Assembly (NCBI RefSeq): GCF_000153765.1
Contig: NZ_DS022294.1
Location: 130,080-190,759 of the forward strand
Reading direction: 5' to 3'
Length of the DNA stretch: 60,680 nt
From: Mariprofundus ferrooxydans PV-1
Lineage (GTDB): Bacteria; Pseudomonadota; Zetaproteobacteria; Mariprofundales; Mariprofundaceae
The position numbers and the translations under genes were made by a program. Below are positions 6,668 through 47,243 of the stretch, piece by piece. Under the pieces are notes generated by a model, which had not been told where the DNA came from, did not search any database, and was given only the letters and a program-made list of their open reading frames with translations. Positions within the stretch are counted from its first letter, which is position 1; the number at the start of each line of letters is the position of its first letter.

Positions 6668-8626
6668 ATGAACATATCCGAACAATTCCCTCTGCTCGAC
6701 CATATTCCTACCGGCATCCTTGCCATCAACAGGTATGGAGAAATTGTGCTTTGGAATCGTATGCTGGAGCAGTGGACCGACAGCAAGCGGGAGCAAATGA
6801 TCGGCCAGAATCTGTTTGAATGTTTTCCCGAGCTGAACGCACCGCAGCTCCGCATTCAGATTGATCAGGTACTCGCAGATGGCGCTTCGGTCACTTTCTC
6901 ACCGCAACTACACCATCATGTGATTCCATGCCGACTGCCAGACGGCTCATGGCGATCCCAGTTGGTCACGATTTCATGGCTGGCAACGCATGAGGTCGCA
7001 TTGTTCAGCATCCAGGATCTGAGCGATCAGCACAGGCTGATCGAAAAATACAGGTTTGCGACAGCCGAACTGGAAGATGAACTCCGACGCAGTCAGACTC
7101 TGGAACGGGAAAAGAGTCAGCTGGCTGCAGCCATTGATCAGGCGGGTGAAGCGGTGATCATTACCGATACAACCGGTCAGATTCAATACACCAATCGTGC
7201 TTTTCTTAAGCAGACCGGCTGGAATCATAAAGAGATTCACACGATTGACACCATCTATGATACGTTTTTTGCCAAAACAGACACAGAGTTCACTCAGGAA
7301 CTACAGGCCCTGCTGCAGAGTGGTAAAACATGGCAAGGCAGGCAGCAAATTATTCGCAAGGATGGAAGCCGCTTCACTGCATCTGTCAGCATCGCGCCTA
7401 TTTTCAACGACGAGCATTCACTGACACACCACATCATTATTCAGGAAGATATCAGCAGGCAGATCACCCTCGAGGAAAAGTTCCGTCACACACAAAAACA
7501 GGAGGCTCTGATCACGCTGATTGGCGGCATCGCCCACGACTTCAATAACCTGCTTGCCGGCCTCGTAGGTCAGGCTTATCTGGCGGCGCGTGAAGTAAGC
7601 GATATGCCGAAAACAGCAGCACGAATCAAAAATATTCAGGGTATCACTCAGGAAGCGGCCGAAATCGTCAATCAGTTGCTGACATTCGCCCGTCAGGGAG
7701 AGATGCATAGCAAGGAGTTTCCACTCTCTTCCTTCATCAAAGAGTTTGCCAAGTTGGCAGCTCGTTCCGTACCGAAAAATATCCGGCTCACCACTGATTT
7801 TGACTCCGGTCGATTTGCATTCCGCGGTGACCCCAATCAATTACAGCAAGCCCTGTTGAACATCGTCCAGAATGCTGTGGATTCACTGCAGGAGAGGAGC
7901 GACGGTCAGATCAAAATCGGCTTGTTTTCGCTAAAGCCCGCCCAGGACGCCGCCCATATTCAAAAATTCCCTGTACTCAGACATGGCAACTTCTGCCACA
8001 TCTGCATCCATGATAACGGAAGCGGCATACCGGCTGAAATACAGGAGCGCATCTTCGATCCGTTTTTTTCGACCAAGAAACTCGGAAGCGGCCTGGGACT
8101 GGCCATGGTGATGGGTTGTATCCGCCACCATCAGGGCATCATTGATGTCGATAGCTCCCCCACCGGTACCACTGTCCACCTCTTCGTGCCCACCATCAAA
8201 CACAGGGGCGTGCTCACACCCAGAGAGCCTGCGGAAATGCACCATTCAGGTGTATCCATTCTGCTTGCCGATGACGATGAACGGGTACTGGAGCCGACTA
8301 TGGAGCTGCTGGAGGCCATGGGACATCAGGTGACGCTCGCCCGTAACGGAGTCGAAGCATACGAGGTCTTCGTTCAACATCCGGAGAGCTGGGATATTGT
8401 CATCACCGACATGGTGATGCCACGAATGAACGGGCTGGAAGCATCACAGAAAATGCGACTGCTCAGGCCCGACATTCCACTAATCTATGCAACCGGCTAT
8501 GACCAGTCGCTGGTCATCGACAATACGCAAAAGGTGGACAACAGCACCCTGATCAGCAAACCCTTCAATCCCGATGATCTGGACAGCTTGATTATGCAAA
8601 TGGTGAAACGTAACAGAAAAGCGTGA
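6668..8626 (+). CDS. Hybrid sensor histidine kinase: PAS-PAS-HisKA-HATPase-REC
   Basis: A soluble hybrid kinase of about 652 residues with no transmembrane segment. A PAS domain lies at about 5-100, a coiled linker follows, and a second PAS with a PAC motif is at about 140-265 ('ITDTTGQIQYTNRAFLKQTG'). The H-box GGIAHDFNNLLAG has phosphoacceptor His290, in the family whose His is followed by DFNN. The ATPase domain has QNAVDS, DNGSGIP and GSGLGLAMV. The C-terminal receiver has DDDE, Asp581 (ITDMVMPRMNG) and the conserved Lys (SKPFNP). It therefore senses a cytoplasmic signal and relays phosphate to an unknown output. No response regulator is adjacent. The GGAGGGAGG site before 6668 decides the start over the upstream ATG at 6632. 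Confidence 0.92.
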   Translation: MNISEQFPLLDHIPTGILAINRYGEIVLWNRMLEQWTDSKREQMIGQNLFECFPELNAPQLRIQIDQVLADGASVTFSPQLHHHVIPCRLPDGSWRSQLVTISWLATHEVALFSIQDLSDQHRLIEKYRFATAELEDELRRSQTLEREKSQLAAAIDQAGEAVIITDTTGQIQYTNRAFLKQTGWNHKEIHTIDTIYDTFFAKTDTEFTQELQALLQSGKTWQGRQQIIRKDGSRFTASVSIAPIFNDEHSLTHHIIIQEDISRQITLEEKFRHTQKQEALITLIGGIAHDFNNLLAGLVGQAYLAAREVSDMPKTAARIKNIQGITQEAAEIVNQLLTFARQGEMHSKEFPLSSFIKEFAKLAARSVPKNIRLTTDFDSGRFAFRGDPNQLQQALLNIVQNAVDSLQERSDGQIKIGLFSLKPAQDAAHIQKFPVLRHGNFCHICIHDNGSGIPAEIQERIFDPFFSTKKLGSGLGLAMVMGCIRHHQGIIDVDSSPTGTTVHLFVPTIKHRGVLTPREPAEMHHSGVSILLADDDERVLEPTMELLEAMGHQVTLARNGVEAYEVFVQHPESWDIVITDMVMPRMNGLEASQKMRLLRPDIPLIYATGYDQSLVIDNTQKVDNSTLISKPFNPDDLDSLIMQMVKRNRKA

Positions 8627-8658
8627 GGTGTGACCTACCCGGCGAAAGTGCGAAAGCG

Positions 8659-9282
8659 TTACAGGTTAACGTCACTGACCAGTGCCGCCATCATCTGATC
8701 CATATGCGCAGGAAAAAAATGCCCTGCACCGTCAATCGTATGCAAACGCACAGAGGGGTGCCCTTCACACCAGTTGCGTACATCATCGAACGGTACAATC
8801 TCATCGGCAGTGCCAGATACCACAGTGACAGGTCGCTCCTCATGATCAAGGAAATCAAATGACCACAGATTGACTGCCGGCGCCACAGCAAACATCCGCT
8901 CCACCCGCTTATCCGCATGCGCCGCCTTCAGGCCCGCCAAACTACCGAAAGAAAAACCCGCCACCCACAAGGGGGCACCCGCCGCCCGGGCATGTAGCCA
9001 CTCCAGCGCGGCCGCCGCATCATCCGCTTCACCATCACCGTTATCCCATACGCCTTCCGACTGTTCGACACCCCGAAAGTTGAAGCGCAGCACAGAGCAT
9101 CCCATCCGCTCAAATGCCCGCCCCATCCAGTAAACAACCTTGTTGCGCATGGTGCCGCCGTATTGCGGATGCGGGTGGCAGAGTACCACTCCCGGGTGCC
9201 CCGCTTCACCCGCCTTATACAACGCCTGCAGCCTTCCTGCAGGTCCCGGCAGAAATATATTTTCAAGATGCTGGGAGCTCAT
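8659..9282 (-). CDS. Alpha/beta hydrolase
   Basis: A 207-residue alpha/beta hydrolase of the small prokaryotic type annotated as 'alpha/beta hydrolase' or KANL3/Tex30-like. The oxyanion segment is CHPHPQYGG, the nucleophile is Ser111 in GFSFGS, and the acid is Asp160 (SGTADEIVP). The base is His188 (DGAGHFF). The block NFRGVEQSEG is typical of this subgroup. The substrate is not predictable. It is the last gene of a four-gene minus-strand operon, and its ATG overlaps the stop of the ArsC-like gene by four bases (ATGA). It converges on the histidine kinase gene with only about 32 bases between them and no visible terminator. Confidence 0.88.
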   Translation of the reverse strand: MSSQHLENIFLPGPAGRLQALYKAGEAGHPGVVLCHPHPQYGGTMRNKVVYWMGRAFERMGCSVLRFNFRGVEQSEGVWDNGDGEADDAAAALEWLHARAAGAPLWVAGFSFGSLAGLKAAHADKRVERMFAVAPAVNLWSFDFLDHEERPVTVVSGTADEIVPFDDVRNWCEGHPSVRLHTIDGAGHFFPAHMDQMMAALVSDVNL

Positions 9283-9632
9283 GATATCTGCAATTGCCCG
9301 TATTGCTCGGGTGAATAACCCACCTCAATCGCATCGCCCATAACCAACACCGGTCGCTTAATCATGGCCGGATGCGCCAGCATCAGAGTGATTGCCTTCT
9401 CAGTATCCAGGTCCGCTCTCTCTGCATCGGAGAGCTTGCGCCAGGTTGTCCCACGCTTGTTGAGCAGCACTTCCCAGCCAACCCGCTCCACCCAGGCAGC
9501 CAACGTCTTGCTCTCAAGCCCCTCTTTTCTATAGTCGTGAAAGCGATATGCCACACCTTCTGCATCCAGCCAGCGACGCGCTTTTTTCATCGTATCACAA
9601 TTGGCAATCCCGAACAGCTCAACCAAGGCCAT
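9279..9632 (-). CDS. ArsC/Spx/YffB-like reductase
   Basis: A small thioredoxin-fold protein (about 117 residues) of the ArsC family, closest in pattern to YffB. The N-terminal site is GIANCDTMKKARRWLD, with Cys12 as the only active-site cysteine, and the later IKRPVLV carries the conserved Arg. Family members are proposed glutathione-dependent thiol reductases; the substrate is unknown and arsenate is not implied. I took the ATG at 9632; the frame runs further upstream but only antisense to the PAS gene. It overlaps the PAS gene's 3' end by 14 bases and the hydrolase start by four, indicating translational coupling. Confidence 0.88.
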   Translation of the reverse strand: MALVELFGIANCDTMKKARRWLDAEGVAYRFHDYRKEGLESKTLAAWVERVGWEVLLNKRGTTWRKLSDAERADLDTEKAITLMLAHPAMIKRPVLVMGDAIEVGYSPEQYGQLQIS

Positions 9633-10251
9633 CTCCCGCCAAGGCATCCTGCGCACTGCCCTCCCTTCGAACGAAAGCAAAGAATTCCTGTTTGTCCCCC
9701 GAACGCAACGGCGTAATGACCATGCTGACCTCAAATTCACTGCCATCCCGGTGACACGCCTGCAAATGCAACGGCTTGTACAGCATCGTAGCAATACCAC
9801 TCTCGCAGTAACGTTGCATACCCTTGCGGTGTGCAGCCCGCATCGGCTCGGGGATAATCAGCCGGGAGATATCTTTTCCCATCGCATCCTGTCTGAGCCA
9901 GCCGAACATTTTTTCGGCGCTACGGTTCCAACCGATTACGACGCCCTGCTCATCAATGGCAACGTAGGCGTCGTAAGTCGAATCGATGATCTGACGGAGA
10001 TGATCGCGACTCTGAGTCAAACGCTCCTGCAACAGATGCTGCTCGCGCATATTACGCTGAGCCAGCCAGCCAAAAGTGGCAAAAGCCAGGGTAATCAGCG
10101 TACGCATCCACAACTCATTCGGGTCATGACTGAGCAGGTTGGGGATGAAATCGCCCTTGTCGAAAACGAAATCATGCATGATCGCTTCCAGCGGCCAGAA
10201 CAGCAGACCGATAACCACACCCAGAACAGTCAAACCATATCGCTGAATCAT
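9619..10251 (-). CDS. Membrane protein with single PAS domain
   Basis: A 210-residue protein with two hydrophobic segments near the N-terminus (about 6-24 and 50-66) and a short helical linker. A single PAS domain with PAC motif covers about 85-200 ('YDAYVAIDEQGVVIGWNRSAEKMFG', then 'HRDGSEFEVSM'). No kinase, GGDEF or other output domain is attached, so it is a membrane sensor that must act through a partner, or the PAS domain alone binds a ligand. It sits between the RibD-C-like gene (one base between stop and ATG) and the ArsC-like gene (14-base overlap). Confidence 0.82.
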   Translation of the reverse strand: MIQRYGLTVLGVVIGLLFWPLEAIMHDFVFDKGDFIPNLLSHDPNELWMRTLITLAFATFGWLAQRNMREQHLLQERLTQSRDHLRQIIDSTYDAYVAIDEQGVVIGWNRSAEKMFGWLRQDAMGKDISRLIIPEPMRAAHRKGMQRYCESGIATMLYKPLHLQACHRDGSEFEVSMVITPLRSGDKQEFFAFVRREGSAQDALAGDGLG

Positions 10252-10252
10252 G

Positions 10253-11104
10253 TTAACTCCCGACCTCCATGTCCGTTAAGGGCTCTCGATCACAAACCCT
10301 GAAGCGGGCGAATAACTGCGAACCAGTATCCAACTGATCCAGATACAGTGATTGTATCTGCAAGCCCACTGTTTTTTTCAACTCTCTGCCTGCGATCGTA
10401 TAAAAACGGTCTCCACCCAGCAAGCTCAAATGTGTAGTCAGAAACAGCTCATCGAGCACACCTGCCGAGAGCAGCGCACCATGCACCTCGGGGCCGGCAA
10501 TCATATAGGCGCTGCGATAACCATGCTCGATCAGCAACTGCTTGAGCCTGCCACCCTCAACGATCCGGCCATCACCGGCCAGCAACACCGGAAAACCGGC
10601 TGCCTCAAGCAGCGCACGTTTGTTTGCATCCGAGCTGCTACCGGTCACAATGATCACCTGCCGGTCCGTCAGTGACTGCAGTGCTGCCAGCGGCAAATCC
10701 AGACTCGATGAGAGCACCATCACATCCGGCTGTGGCTTGAGCCCATGCTCTCGCCGCCAGCGCACCAAATCAGCGTAGTCGTCACCCTCACCAACCGGCA
10801 ACAGGTCCTGGGCACAGCCCTTTGCCAACTGGCGAAAATAGCGCGCCGAAGTGAGCATCACATCCGACTGGGCGGCCAACTCCTGATACAGGCGCCAGTC
10901 CCTTGGATTGGCAATGCTTGCCGGCACTTCAAACTCACCGCTATCAGCCTTTTCCATGGCAATGCGCCCATCCAGACTGGCAATATAGTTAGCGTAGATA
11001 AACACATCATCGGCTGACGCCTGCTGATGCAGACTCATGGCCAGATAGAGTCCCTGCAGATTTTGACCGGAACCATCAGGCGGAAATAGCTGTAACACAC
11101 TCAT
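10253..11104 (-). CDS. RibD C-terminal-domain (DHFR-like) reductase
   Basis: A 283-residue protein with the RibD-C/DHFR fold. YANYIASLDGRIAM is the substrate-binding beta-helix start, 'SDVMLTSARYFRQL' follows, then 'VIIVTGSSSD' and the NADPH-side 'AYMIAGPEVHGALLSAGVLDELFLT'. The family reduces a pyrimidine deaminated in riboflavin synthesis, or serves other pteridine/flavin-related reductions. No deaminase domain is present and no other rib genes are nearby, so a dedicated riboflavin role is not shown. It is the first gene of a tight four-gene operon and is divergent from the DUF6868 gene, with only about 62 bases between them. Confidence 0.82.
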   Translation of the reverse strand: MSVLQLFPPDGSGQNLQGLYLAMSLHQQASADDVFIYANYIASLDGRIAMEKADSGEFEVPASIANPRDWRLYQELAAQSDVMLTSARYFRQLAKGCAQDLLPVGEGDDYADLVRWRREHGLKPQPDVMVLSSSLDLPLAALQSLTDRQVIIVTGSSSDANKRALLEAAGFPVLLAGDGRIVEGGRLKQLLIEHGYRSAYMIAGPEVHGALLSAGVLDELFLTTHLSLLGGDRFYTIAGRELKKTVGLQIQSLYLDQLDTGSQLFARFRVCDREPLTDMEVGS

Positions 11105-11166
11105 CGCTCAAGCATAGCTCTGCAAACAGATCCGGAATAGCCTCAACTGCGTGTATCAGGAGGATC

Positions 11167-11412
11167 ATGGTGACAATTGACACGATTCGGGATGTGCTGC
11201 TCTACTGCGCACTGATCAATATGGGGCTGCTGTTGTGGTGGGCTCTGTTTTTCATATTCGCTCACGACTTTGTCTATCGCATGCACAGCCGCTGGTTCAG
11301 CATACCTTCGGAGAAGTTCGATGCCATTCATTATACCGGCATGGCGTTTTACAAGATATGCATCTTCCTGTTCAATATCGCGCCATGGATAGCCTTGAAG
11401 ATCGTAGCCTGA
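11167..11412 (+). CDS. Small two-helix membrane protein (DUF6868 family)
   Basis: An 81-residue protein with two hydrophobic helices (about 9-32 and 58-79). Conserved-looking elements include 'INMGLLLWWALFFIF', 'FVYRMHSRWF' and 'IHYTGMAFYKI', which I recognise as the DUF6868 family of unknown function. A clean CAGGAGGATC ribosome binding site precedes the ATG. Its stop codon overlaps the ung start (TGATG), so the two are translationally coupled. Whether there is a functional link to DNA repair is unknown. Confidence 0.82.
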   Translation: MVTIDTIRDVLLYCALINMGLLLWWALFFIFAHDFVYRMHSRWFSIPSEKFDAIHYTGMAFYKICIFLFNIAPWIALKIVA

Positions 11413-39536: not shown

Positions 39537-40865
39537 TCAGCCTTGGTTCTTATCAAAAATGCAGTAGCAGTTTCTGCCACTTTCCTTGGCCTGGTACATG
39601 GCAGCATCGGCTTTTTTCACCAGGGTTTCCATATCCTGATCGTCCGAAGAGGCCAGACAAATGCCGATGCTTACACCCACCTCATAGTGACCCCCTTTCA
39701 GAACTAACGACTGCCCAATAACAGTAATTACTTTCTCAGCCATTTTGCAGACAAACTCTTCTGAAGGAACATCAAGCAGAATGATGCTGAACTCATCGCC
39801 ACCAAGGCGGGCTACGGTATCTGTTGAACGAACACATCGCATCAGGCGACTGCTCACCTCGACAAGCACCCTGTCACCCCACTCGTGGCCCAGCTCATCA
39901 TTAATCAGCTTGAAGCGATCAAGGTCCAGCATCAACATGCCCATCCGATTCCTGTTGCGCTGCAGGTGGGCCCCAGCCTGTTGCAAGCGGTCATAAAACA
40001 GTGCCCGGTTGGCTAACCCTGTAAGATGGTCATGATAGGCCATGTTACTGATTTTCTCTTCTGCCTGCTTGCGTTCGGTGATGTCGATATGTAAGCCGAC
40101 ATAGTGGGTCGTCACGCCGTTCTCTCCTTTGACGGCGGTGATCGTAAGCCACTTCGGGTATATCTCACCATTCTTGCGTCGATCCCATACCTCTCCCTGC
40201 CATTTCCCGGTGCGCTTGAGGGTATCCCACATCTCGTCGTAAAAATCCGCGTCATGACGGCCCGATTTAAGCAAGCTCGGTGTCTGTCCGACAACCTCCT
40301 CTGACGTATAGCCGGTGGTCTTTGTGAAGGCATGATTGACCTTCAGAATCACGCTATTTGCATCGGTGATCACCATGCTTTCCTGAGATTCAAATGCAGC
40401 GGTAACAATGCGCAGTTCCGCCTCGACCCGTTTGCGCTCGGTGATATCATGAATGATCGAAAAAAACAGGCTCTTGCCCCTGTAGCTCACAAGTGAAATA
40501 TGTGATTCTACCGTGCGAACATCACCATTAGCCAAACGATGGTCAAAGGAGAATATATTCTGTTCTCCAGCAATGGCCTTCTGTCTCTGATGATGAATTT
40601 CAGACTCTTGCTGGGCATTGATCCGGCTTACGCTCATACCACGCAAACTTTCCAGCGGGTAGCCATAAAATTGCGCTGCCGCAGGGTTGGCATCCACGAT
40701 GGTCCTGGATTGATAATCAATCAATAACATGACGTCACGATGCATCTCGAACAACTGCCGAAAATGTGCTTCGCTTTCCCGCAAGGCATCAATACCTGGC
40801 TTCTTGTCAGAGTGAATCGTTGTCAGCCACTCTTCAAACTCGGGCGTCATTTCAGGTTCATCCAA
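39537..40865 (-). CDS. PAS-PAS-GGDEF diguanylate cyclase
   Basis: A cytoplasmic protein of about 442 residues: PAS-PAC at about 25-145, PAS-PAC at 150-270, GGDEF at about 280-440. The active-site loop RLGGDEFSIILL is intact, and the allosteric inhibition site RSTD lies five residues before it. It should make cyclic di-GMP and be product-inhibited. The start is weak: a TTG at 40865 behind AAGAAG, or an ATG at 40850. It appears to be a single gene. Confidence 0.9.
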   Translation of the reverse strand: MDEPEMTPEFEEWLTTIHSDKKPGIDALRESEAHFRQLFEMHRDVMLLIDYQSRTIVDANPAAAQFYGYPLESLRGMSVSRINAQQESEIHHQRQKAIAGEQNIFSFDHRLANGDVRTVESHISLVSYRGKSLFFSIIHDITERKRVEAELRIVTAAFESQESMVITDANSVILKVNHAFTKTTGYTSEEVVGQTPSLLKSGRHDADFYDEMWDTLKRTGKWQGEVWDRRKNGEIYPKWLTITAVKGENGVTTHYVGLHIDITERKQAEEKISNMAYHDHLTGLANRALFYDRLQQAGAHLQRNRNRMGMLMLDLDRFKLINDELGHEWGDRVLVEVSSRLMRCVRSTDTVARLGGDEFSIILLDVPSEEFVCKMAEKVITVIGQSLVLKGGHYEVGVSIGICLASSDDQDMETLVKKADAAMYQAKESGRNCYCIFDKNQG

Positions 40866-44066: not shown

Positions 44067-45461
44067 TCACCACGGATCATCTTCTGGATCATCAACCGGA
44101 TTAAATGACTGGAATGCTTTTTCAACCACAGCTGCTATCTCCTGCTCCACATAAGCCTCACCCGGCAGAATATTAATGCAGCGCACCTGTTTGCCGGCGG
44201 ACAGCGGACACTCACCAAGCTCTTTCGGCCGGAAACCATGTCCCAACACCAACATGGTTCCGTATGGCGCTATCACGCCGTCACTCTCCACCCCTCTGGC
44301 CAGCTGCGAAGCCAGTTCAACCGGTGCACCGGCAACAGTCAACTGCCTGCGACGTCCTGTTCCAAGGTAGCCGATCATCACTTCCCCTATCGCCAGTCCG
44401 ATTCTGAAGCCAACAGCATCAGCAGCACCGTCAGTAAGCCGAGTGGCGGCAGCGGCGATGGCCATTCCCGCTTTGGCTGCCTGATTCTCATGACACTTGA
44501 GATCAAACGGGTGGTTAAATACCACCACCATTTCATCGCCCGAAATATGATCAACATGACCGCCGAATTCGTGAGCAATAAATTCGAAGAGGGCAAAGTA
44601 GCGGTTCAGGATATGCAGGGCATCATCCTGTGGTGAGTGCAGCGTACTACCGTGGAAATTCATCACCTGGATAGCAAGAATGCTGACCTCCCGTTGTTTA
44701 TCTGCCCGGTGTGCATTGCGGTCATACTCATCCGCCACCAGTTGCGGGCGCTGATAGTGACCGTACAGATCATGTATCTTCTCCCGCTGCTCCAGATTGG
44801 AAACCATCTGATTGAACTGATAAAATACTTTGCCGAACTCATTCGTTGCACGCACAGGCAGGTGCGCGGAGAAATCGCCGCCCCCAACGCGCCTGCATGC
44901 CTGGGCCAGTTCTCTTAAATAATTCCTGACACGCCCGCTCATGATATAGACAAGCAACCCCATCAAAAGGGCAGTAAGCAGTGTCGTTGCAGCCATACGC
45001 CATCTGATCTGACTCGCGTAGGCTTCCCATGCCTTACCCGGGTTATAGATAGCGATATCCCCCAATCTGGCGGTATTATATCGAATCGTCATCACATACC
45101 ATTTATCCGCCCCCTTCACCATGGAGGGAGTAACAGGCCACTCTTTCAACGCGGCAATGGGTGCAGGCAGTTTTGTATTACCATAATTCACCTGTTCGCC
45201 ACTCGCCCAGCGCAGGAAGACCTGGATATTCGGAAGCTGATACATAAACCCATTAATCAGGCTATCCACTTCGGCCCTGCTATTCGCCATCATCGGCATC
45301 TTCAACTCATCACCCAGGAGCACCGTCAACAGACGACTTTGCTCACTCTCACTGGAAGCCCATGCATCTCTTTCAACGGCGGTAATGCTCAGCAGCATCA
45401 CAGTGCCAACCGCAATCACTGACAAAGCAGCCAGCAAGCTCCATACCCAACGCAATGACAT
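44067..45461 (-). CDS. Membrane protein with HAMP-like linker and degenerate class III nucleotidyl cyclase domain
   Basis: 464 residues. An N-terminal helix, a periplasmic sensor of about 120 residues, a second helix (TTLLTALLMGLLVYIMSG), a HAMP-like linker and a cyclase-homology domain at about 250-410 are seen. Alignment by eye to class III cyclases shows most active-site residues gone. The first metal Asp (FAD position) is Gln (ILAIQVMNF), and the adenine-binding Lys is His (DHISGD). In the GDAVNLASRL block (here GAPVELASQL), Asp is Ala, Asn is Glu and Arg is Gln. Only the second metal Asp (SGDE) remains. It is likely a signalling pseudo-enzyme. GGAGGATTTC precedes the ATG. It is divergent from the MotA/MotB-like pair. 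Confidence 0.85.
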   Translation of the reverse strand: MSLRWVWSLLAALSVIAVGTVMLLSITAVERDAWASSESEQSRLLTVLLGDELKMPMMANSRAEVDSLINGFMYQLPNIQVFLRWASGEQVNYGNTKLPAPIAALKEWPVTPSMVKGADKWYVMTIRYNTARLGDIAIYNPGKAWEAYASQIRWRMAATTLLTALLMGLLVYIMSGRVRNYLRELAQACRRVGGGDFSAHLPVRATNEFGKVFYQFNQMVSNLEQREKIHDLYGHYQRPQLVADEYDRNAHRADKQREVSILAIQVMNFHGSTLHSPQDDALHILNRYFALFEFIAHEFGGHVDHISGDEMVVVFNHPFDLKCHENQAAKAGMAIAAAATRLTDGAADAVGFRIGLAIGEVMIGYLGTGRRRQLTVAGAPVELASQLARGVESDGVIAPYGTMLVLGHGFRPKELGECPLSAGKQVRCINILPGEAYVEQEIAAVVEKAFQSFNPVDDPEDDPW

Positions 45462-45657
45462 GAAATCCTCCGATCAGAATCAGCAACAGGGGCGTCAAAT
45501 ACACCTGCATACCGCAAGACAAGCATATTGTTTGCCAACAACTGGCCCGCCTGATCCGCTCGGCCAACAGCAGTAGTCTCATGCGCCGTTGCTGATGAAC
45601 ATTTGGCCGGATAATTGCTAGGTACGATCGAACTAACAACGCACAAAGGAGATCAAC

Positions 45658-46488
45658 ATGGACTTATCAACCATTGCAGGTATTTTGGCTGGTATCGGAC
45701 TGATCATTCTCTCTGTATTTCTCTCCTCAGTGCAGCCCGACGTGTATATCAACCTGCCGGGACTGCTGATCGTTGTCGGAGGTACATTCGCCGCCACTCT
45801 GGTCAGTTTTCCGGCACAGGAGCTGGGCAAGGTTTGGCGGGTATTGGGGAACGTGTTTCGCAATAACGAATACTCAATCAGTGATGATATTTCTGAAATC
45901 GCAAATGCTGCCCGCCTGCGCCGCCATGGTGACCTGGCCCGTATCGAGGACCAACTCTCCCGCATTGGCAACCCGTTCCTGAGAACTGCAATCCAGCTGG
46001 TCATCGACAACACACCAACCGAAGAAATCGTCAATATTTTGCAGTGGCGTATCAAGCGACTGCGTGAGCAGGAGCGCGCTGAAGCGCATGTCTTTCACGT
46101 CATGAGTGTTTACGCCCCGGCATTCGGCATGTTCGGCACGCTCGTTGGTATGGTAAACATGCTCTTTGGCATCAGTGGTCCCGACATGTTAAATATCGGT
46201 CATAATATGGCCGTCGCTCTGATGACGACACTTTACGGCGTCATTCTCTCCAATCTCATATTCAAACCAATCGCCATCAAACTGGAACGGCGTACGGAAA
46301 AGCGGGCCATGATCATGCGCATGATTGTTGAAGGCACCATTATGCTGGCAGGCAATCGCAGCCCGGTGTTTATCCGCGAAACGCTAAGTTCATTTTCGGC
46401 CCACCATGACGATGAACTGCGCAGCACCGGCAGCTCTTCCGGCAAAGCCTCCGCTACCCAAAGAAGTAGCATGGCTGATGACTTCTGA
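45658..46488 (+). CDS. MotA/PomA-like proton or sodium channel subunit
   Basis: 276 residues with four membrane helices, and the MotA/PomA signature '[19 protein letters not shown]' plus '[23 protein letters not shown]'. The cytoplasmic loop has the charged '[24 protein letters not shown]' region. The first helix ([17 protein letters not shown]) and '[20 protein letters not shown]' are PomA-like. It forms an ion-driven motor with MotB. No flagellar genes are in the window, so it could drive flagella from elsewhere or power another system. AAAGGAGATC precedes the ATG. Confidence 0.92.
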
Positions 46489-47243
46489 TGAGCAGCAATC
46501 CTGAATCAGTCTCCGGGAAATCCAGCATGGAAATGATCCGGAGCCATATCCTCAGCGACATGGAAGAACGCGAAATCGAACATGATCAAAGCGTTACAAA
46601 TGAAGGATGGATGGTCGCCTATCTGGATCTGATGACCCTGTTGCTGGCGTTGTTCATCATTATGGGGGCCGTCAGTCACTCCAAGGCAGGCGTAAAAATG
46701 CAGGCCCCCTCTTCGCCGCAAAATACCACCTCAGAAGGTACCCCGGTTTCAGATAATGCCACCATTCAGCGACAGGGGCAGAAGGAGGGCATGGAAGATA
46801 ATATGCGCCGCATTCTTGGCAGCAACTCGCTCGGCGGCGTGATGGACGTCAAAATGTCACCCGGTCAGATCCGATTACAAATGGATGCAGCCCTGCTGTT
46901 CAAGCCCGGTCAGTCGGAGCTGGATGAGTCATCCAGAATACCACTAAAGAATCTGGCCAAAGTGTTGCAGACTTACACGGGTAAAATAGAAGTGGCAGGG
47001 CACAGTGACAGTACCCCACTGGCCGGCAGGGGCTATCAATCCAACTGGGAGCTCTCAACGATGAGGGCTACCGCTGTGGTAAAGGCACTGATTGATTTCG
47101 GCATAGAGCCGGGGCGCCTGCATGCGGCCGGATATGCCGACACACGCCCGCTCGCCTCCAACGCGACTGCGGAAGGCCGGGCCAAAAATCGCAGGGTAGA
47201 GTTTACTATTGAAATGGGGCCGGAGTTTTTACGCCGGCGATAA
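46488..47243 (+). CDS. MotB/PomB-like subunit with OmpA domain
   Basis: 251 residues: one membrane helix with the ion-binding Asp ([17 protein letters not shown]), an acidic and Ser/Thr-rich linker, and a peptidoglycan-binding OmpA-like domain at about 130-245 ('[26 protein letters not shown]' and '[17 protein letters not shown]'). The ATG overlaps the motA-like stop (TGATG). It is the stator partner of the preceding protein. Confidence 0.93.

Follow-up and report, generated by a model that had tools for sequence, protein, structure and literature searches.

A receptor-type class III cyclase with most catalytic residues lost, a candidate regulatory partner of a second, probably flagellar stator of Mariprofundus

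The window, which is the whole stretch of 60,680 nucleotides of Mariprofundus ferrooxydans PV-1 DNA analysed here, carries on its minus strand the gene cycA. The encoded membrane receptor consists, from the N- to the C-terminus, of a transmembrane segment, a periplasmic domain, a second transmembrane segment, a HAMP domain and a class III cyclase domain. A pair of stator genes, motA2 and motB2, is located next to it on the opposite strand. The open reading frame of cycA and the motifs ILAIQVMNF, DHISGD and GAPVELASQL, from which the original prediction of a degenerate cyclase was made, were confirmed by translation. The genes and the parts of the receptor are the following.

44067..45461, minus strand: cycA, membrane receptor pseudo-cyclase, 464 amino acids (ORF translation, Pfam domains, orthologues)
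45006..45371, minus strand: periplasmic PAS/CACHE-like domain, residues 31-152 (AlphaFold model and weak Foldseek match)
44787..44942, minus strand: HAMP domain, residues 174-225 (Pfam PF00672, E 9.1e-10, above the gathering cut-off)
44712..44786, minus strand: linker between HAMP and cyclase domains, residues 226-250, LYGxYQRPxLVADEYDR (orthologue alignment)
44187..44711, minus strand: degenerate class III cyclase homology domain, residues 251-425 (Pfam PF00211, Foldseek)
45658..46488, plus strand: motA2, stator A subunit of the second type, C-terminus ...ADDF (Pfam MotA_ExbB, E 9e-24)
46488..47243, plus strand: motB2, stator B subunit with channel Asp, OmpA-type domain and conserved N-terminal motif (Pfam OmpA, E 3.5e-21; MotB_plug, E 3.7e-10)

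Pfam found only the HAMP and Guanylate_cyc domains in CycA; PilZ and GGDEF-EAL output domains were absent. The Guanylate_cyc match (PF00211) covers residues 254-425 with an E-value of 7.8e-9, above the gathering cut-off. In a phmmer search, residues from about 246 to 396 aligned with the catalytic domains of class III cyclases of solved structure (best E 4e-10), the close relatives by sequence being those of bacterial enzymes such as Rv1625c and Cya2. Foldseek comparison of the cyclase domain with solved class III cyclases gave TMt values of about 0.75-0.80, the pLDDT of the full AlphaFold model being only 66. The cyclase domain thus appears to retain the class III cyclase homology fold, as was originally proposed. 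The presence of a periplasmic domain and a HAMP domain was likewise borne out. When residues 26-156 were modelled alone, a PAS/CACHE-like fold was predicted with pLDDT 83; its best Foldseek match, a weak one, was the periplasmic domain of a LapD orthologue (4u64; E 1.1e-3, TM 0.56). The HAMP domain and the linker following it are the least variable parts of CycA in the orthologue alignment. The linker, whose position we take to correspond to the cyclase transducer element, has the lowest column entropy of all.

The six canonical catalytic positions, as assigned by alignment with relatives, are occupied in CycA as follows.

44667..44669, minus strand: Q265, site of metal Asp 1 (Me1); D in 60/60 paralogues; D in 6, E in 10 and Q in 2 of 18 orthologues
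44547..44549, minus strand: H305, site of the base-binding Lys; K in 60/60 paralogues; A, D, H, Q, R or S in orthologues
44535..44537, minus strand: D309, metal Asp 2 (Me2), retained; lost in 7/19 orthologues
44337..44339, minus strand: T375, second base-specifying (second substrate) site, retained as Thr (alignment)
44316..44318, minus strand: E382, site of the transition-state Asn; N in 60/60 paralogues and 0/18 orthologues
44304..44306, minus strand: Q386, site of the transition-state Arg; R in 60/60 paralogues and 0/18 orthologues

Four of these six positions are lost and two are kept. CycA therefore lacks the pair of metal-binding Asp residues of active cyclases (Q265, D309), the combination of a base-binding Lys with a second residue of the Asp/Thr type (H305, T375) and the transition-state Asn and Arg (E382, Q386). 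The loss of catalytic residues had been predicted, and so had the survival of a single metal Asp; the proposed number of five was too high, since the Asp of the 'GD' pair, replaced by A379, lies outside the canonical six, though it is 95% conserved in the intact paralogue described below. The base-binding Lys is replaced by Glu in guanylyl cyclases. Thr in the second substrate site is found in some active cyclases, and Ma1120 is active despite Ala replacing the transition-state Asn, so that single deviations can be tolerated (PMC4215837). Catalysis by CycA seems unlikely, judging from the alignment, because four positions are lost simultaneously, one metal ligand and the transition-state Arg among them.

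Among 78 genomes of the class Zetaproteobacteria, cycA orthologues were found in 19, namely 18 Mariprofundus genomes and one of another genus (G019). The Lys is lost in all 19, and both Asn and Arg in all 18 copies readable at these sites, one copy running off its contig. Asn is replaced by A, D, E, G, S or T and Arg by E, H, L, M or Q. The Me1 Asp is lost in 12 of 18 orthologues, and the copy of G060, a long branch in the trees, has lost Me2 as well. The expectation that the pseudo-enzyme is conserved among orthologues was thus confirmed. The expectation that they keep identical substitutions was wrong: the catalytic columns have each drifted to a variety of residues, while the fold residues stay, and the residue set of the window protein is shared only by its nearest orthologue (G051, 90% identical). 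In four close pairs, ω was 0.09-0.24 for full-length CycA (0.104 for the window protein and its nearest orthologue) and 0.07-0.19 for the dead cyclase domain. Because these values lie in the purifying range and the frame is open in 19 genomes, a decaying single gene was rejected. The sequences indicate that catalytic residues were lost clade-wide in cycA under continuing purifying selection. Full-length relatives of the receptor were not found outside the class among 398 sampled Pseudomonadota genomes.

Within the class, nearly all genomes searched encode an intact full-length paralogue of CycA with about 29-35% identity and the same architecture (e.g. G000:C4:1394109-1395401). In contrast to CycA, it is catalytically complete by sequence and unlinked to motAB. 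Both metal Asp residues, Lys, Asn and Arg are canonical in all 60 aligned copies, of which only one has not retained the Thr. This paralogue is the only relative in which most copies have intact residues, the situation named beforehand as evidence against the prediction, and it occupies another locus; the orthologues do not show it. In the genomes read, it is mostly found in a GGDEF-cyclase-lipoprotein-ispG cluster away from motAB. At L118:5152-8760, for example, it follows immediately after a GGDEF protein and precedes a TPR-like lipoprotein and ispG, an order repeated in many genomes of the class.

The neighbours of cycA are recognizable as stator genes by the MotA_ExbB domain of one product and the MotB plug, channel Asp and OmpA-type domain of the other. 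All MotB2 sequences read from the class contain the motif YLD(L/V)(M/V)(T/S)LL with the channel Asp. Two types of MotA occur in the class. The common one sits in a flagellar cluster in which, as read from translations (L129), motA and motB are followed by fliL-, fliM-, fliN- and fliP-like frames. MotA2 was found in 23 of the 78 genomes, which are exactly those carrying a cyclase of CycA's group, and the two genes are adjacent in 22 of these 23. The sole exception is G060, where the stretch upstream of cycA is occupied by a tRNA-like sequence and an integrase-like start (L113:7874-8760). The suggested tie to the divergent MotA/MotB pair therefore holds, and the neighbour is shared in every Mariprofundus genome having cycA except the one with this insertion. 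A chance neighbourhood was rejected because the distributions match and the genes adjoin. Among MotA2 homologues from outside the class (45-52% identity, families f28 and f16), no recognisable CycA-type cyclase was seen in the five neighbourhoods read. In one of the loci outside the class (L122, G142), a MotA2/MotB2-like pair precedes an ORF of 966 codons resembling a membrane sensor.

The arrangement is divergent in Mariprofundus. In four other genomes (G001, G002, G003 and G015) the two genes share a strand, and the cyclase gene immediately precedes motA2. Of these four cyclases, those of G003 and G015 have the full set of six catalytic residues, which those of G001 and G002 lack. In quick trees, the motAB-linked copies grouped together, with three unlinked copies of family f2 among them. 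Since the copies of G001-G003 group separately from those of Mariprofundus, at least two losses of catalysis took place among the motAB-linked cyclases. The complete residue sets of G003 and G015 suggest that the motAB-linked role probably began with an active enzyme. GGDEF-domain genes also occur in the vicinity: one lies beyond motB2 and convergent with it in several Mariprofundus genomes (L102, L103, L105, L106), and a PAS-PAS-GGDEF-like protein, read from translation only, is encoded in the window at 39537-40865 on the minus strand.

The 17 divergent intergenic regions could largely not be aligned save for two blocks, each of which is a GG-N10-GC box of the σ54 type.

45522..45538, minus strand: σ54-type -24/-12 box TTGGCAAACAATATGCT towards cycA, counterpart in 17/17 aligned regions
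45603..45619, plus strand: σ54-type -24/-12 box TTGGCCGGATAATTGCT towards motA2, counterpart in 17/17 aligned regions

The consensus is TTGGC..TTGCT towards motA2 and (T/C/G)TGGC..TGCT towards cycA, and within the window TTGGCN7TTGCT is matched exactly nowhere but at the motA2 box. These boxes are consensus matches and hence putative promoters; they contain the GG-N10-GC element, are conserved in relatives, and RpoN is encoded in the genome. No such box was found upstream of the codirectional cyclase genes of family f2 and G015. In Mariprofundus, cycA and motA2/motB2 are apparently switched on together. The proteins also have matching cytoplasmic ends. The C-terminal motif (D/A)-(D/E)-(D/N)-F of MotA2 is present in 17 of 17 Mariprofundus-type modules and in none of 13 other MotA2 homologues. 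An N-terminal segment of MotB2 is characteristic of the same modules (weak in G046 and G048) and is absent from the 13 other homologues. Most CycA proteins end in DEGW, the window protein in DDPW, and this end is absent in G046 and G048. Such lineage-specific conserved ends of MotA2, MotB2 and, mostly, the receptor suggest that CycA may physically contact MotA2/MotB2.

Taken together, the comparisons point to CycA as a catalytically dead class III cyclase receptor which may be a dedicated regulatory partner of the second, probably flagellar stator MotA2/MotB2 and may signal by protein contact; we give this reading a probability of about one half. The periplasmic PAS/CACHE-like domain would sense a cue, which the HAMP domain and the linker helix would relay to a dimer of the cyclase fold. 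This dimer would contact MotA2/MotB2 and alter stator engagement or torque, and no cyclic nucleotide would be made. The broader proposal that, on two or more occasions in a single bacterial class, a receptor class III cyclase became a non-catalytic transducer, directly gating or tuning a dedicated flagellar stator and turning a periplasmic cue into torque through contacts of the cyclase fold, without a second messenger, is put forward tentatively.

CycA shares the cyclase fold, the HAMP domain and the linker helix with membrane class III adenylyl and guanylyl cyclases (the catalytic domains of Rv1625c and Cya2; HAMP-linked receptor forms), to which it is homologous by sequence and predicted structure, but the orthologues all lack the Lys and, wherever readable, Asn and Arg. 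A role in altering stator action by contact would be shared with the motor brakes and stator regulators YcgR, FlgZ, MotI and MotL. These are soluble c-di-GMP-binding PilZ proteins, whereas CycA, a membrane receptor, combines a cyclase fold with a periplasmic domain of its own and has no PilZ domain. LapD is similar as a membrane receptor in which a PAS-like periplasmic domain is joined to a HAMP domain and degenerate second-messenger enzyme domains working by contact, the structural match of the periplasmic domains being weak. The degenerate domains of LapD are, however, of the GGDEF-EAL type; LapD is a c-di-GMP-binding protein, and its target is the protease LapG. The literature searched, which omits most subscription journals, yielded no paper on a pseudo-cyclase tied to a stator, and there seem to be hardly any descriptions of bacterial class III pseudo-cyclases to which a role has been assigned. 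If the contact reading is true, the locus offers a system of one gene and one stator for testing directly how a cyclase domain is used without catalysis, with the intact motAB-linked relatives G003 and G015 as natural 'before' states.

The original prediction left the choice between a nucleotide sensor and a protein-interaction module. A sensor role, in which a nucleotide would still bind to the cyclase fold and be reported to the motor, would fit the intact fold and the Me2 Asp and Thr375 of the window protein. A re-purposed pocket is nevertheless unlikely, since the catalytic columns drift, six different residues occurring at the Lys site, six at Asn and five at Arg, with Me2 lost in 7 of 19 orthologues; this drift favours the protein-contact module. 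A further alternative is residual activity, with cAMP made near the stator by a weak or unconventional cyclase. Ma1120 (PMC4215837) provides the precedent, and the Me2 and Thr of the window protein, like the pairs of metal Asp kept in some orthologues, would be compatible with residual or heterodimeric activity. A weak or unconventional cyclase is quite unlikely, as all four of Me1, Lys, Asn and Arg are substituted together and their replacements vary among orthologues. CycA could instead pair with the intact paralogue, as a C1-like half or a dominant-negative partner. In mammalian cyclases, the C1 domain keeps the metal residues and has lost Lys, Asn and Arg, and the CycA proteins of G047, G049, G050, G053, G054 and G057 follow this pattern; an active-type partner is available in nearly all class genomes searched. 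A heterodimer is possible in those orthologues that keep both metal Asp residues. The window protein, on the other hand, has also lost Me1, as have most orthologues, so that both composite sites of a heterodimer would be dead, and no complementary half is encoded nearby. The paralogue belongs to its own cluster elsewhere, and the HAMP and linker segments of the two proteins have diverged. Such pairing is on the whole rather unlikely.

The stator pair and CycA might also serve the twisted stalk, through rotation of the cell during stalk excretion, and not the flagellum. Cell rotation has been suggested to twist the stalk (PMC8250860), and all 18 genomes with both sfz2 and the flagellar switch gene FliM/N carry the cycA-motA2/motB2 module. 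FliM/N is, however, present in 22 of the 23 module carriers, the exception being a genome of 68% completeness, and Mariprofundus genomes without FliM/N lack the module, a correlation limited by incomplete genomes and partly reflecting shared ancestry. Two Mariprofundus genomes (G055 and G065) keep sfz2 and have neither FliM/N nor the module, and in five genomes (G001, G003, G015, G019 and G061) the module is present and sfz2 was undetected. As the module thus follows the flagellum more than the stalk, a stalk motor is disfavoured as very unlikely. Regulation of a flagellar stator by CycA, if true, suggests how Mariprofundus, a marine iron oxidiser, may choose between two stators on passing from swimming to stalk-forming life or back. 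In the genome of the window, genes matching the sfz1 and sfz2 described in PMC8250860 are located at a distance of about 49 kb from cycA. They belong to a stalk-formation (sfz) cluster just upstream of the window (L153, G000:C4:116000-134000), which contains an Sfz2-like gene with T2SSE_N and glycosyltransferase domains (6741-8795), a BcsB-like Sfz1 gene (8804-11218) and further ORFs whose lengths fit Sfz3-Sfz5. Next to the cluster, sfz1 occurs a second time as a partial copy, accompanied by a masked stretch and transposase-like ORFs.
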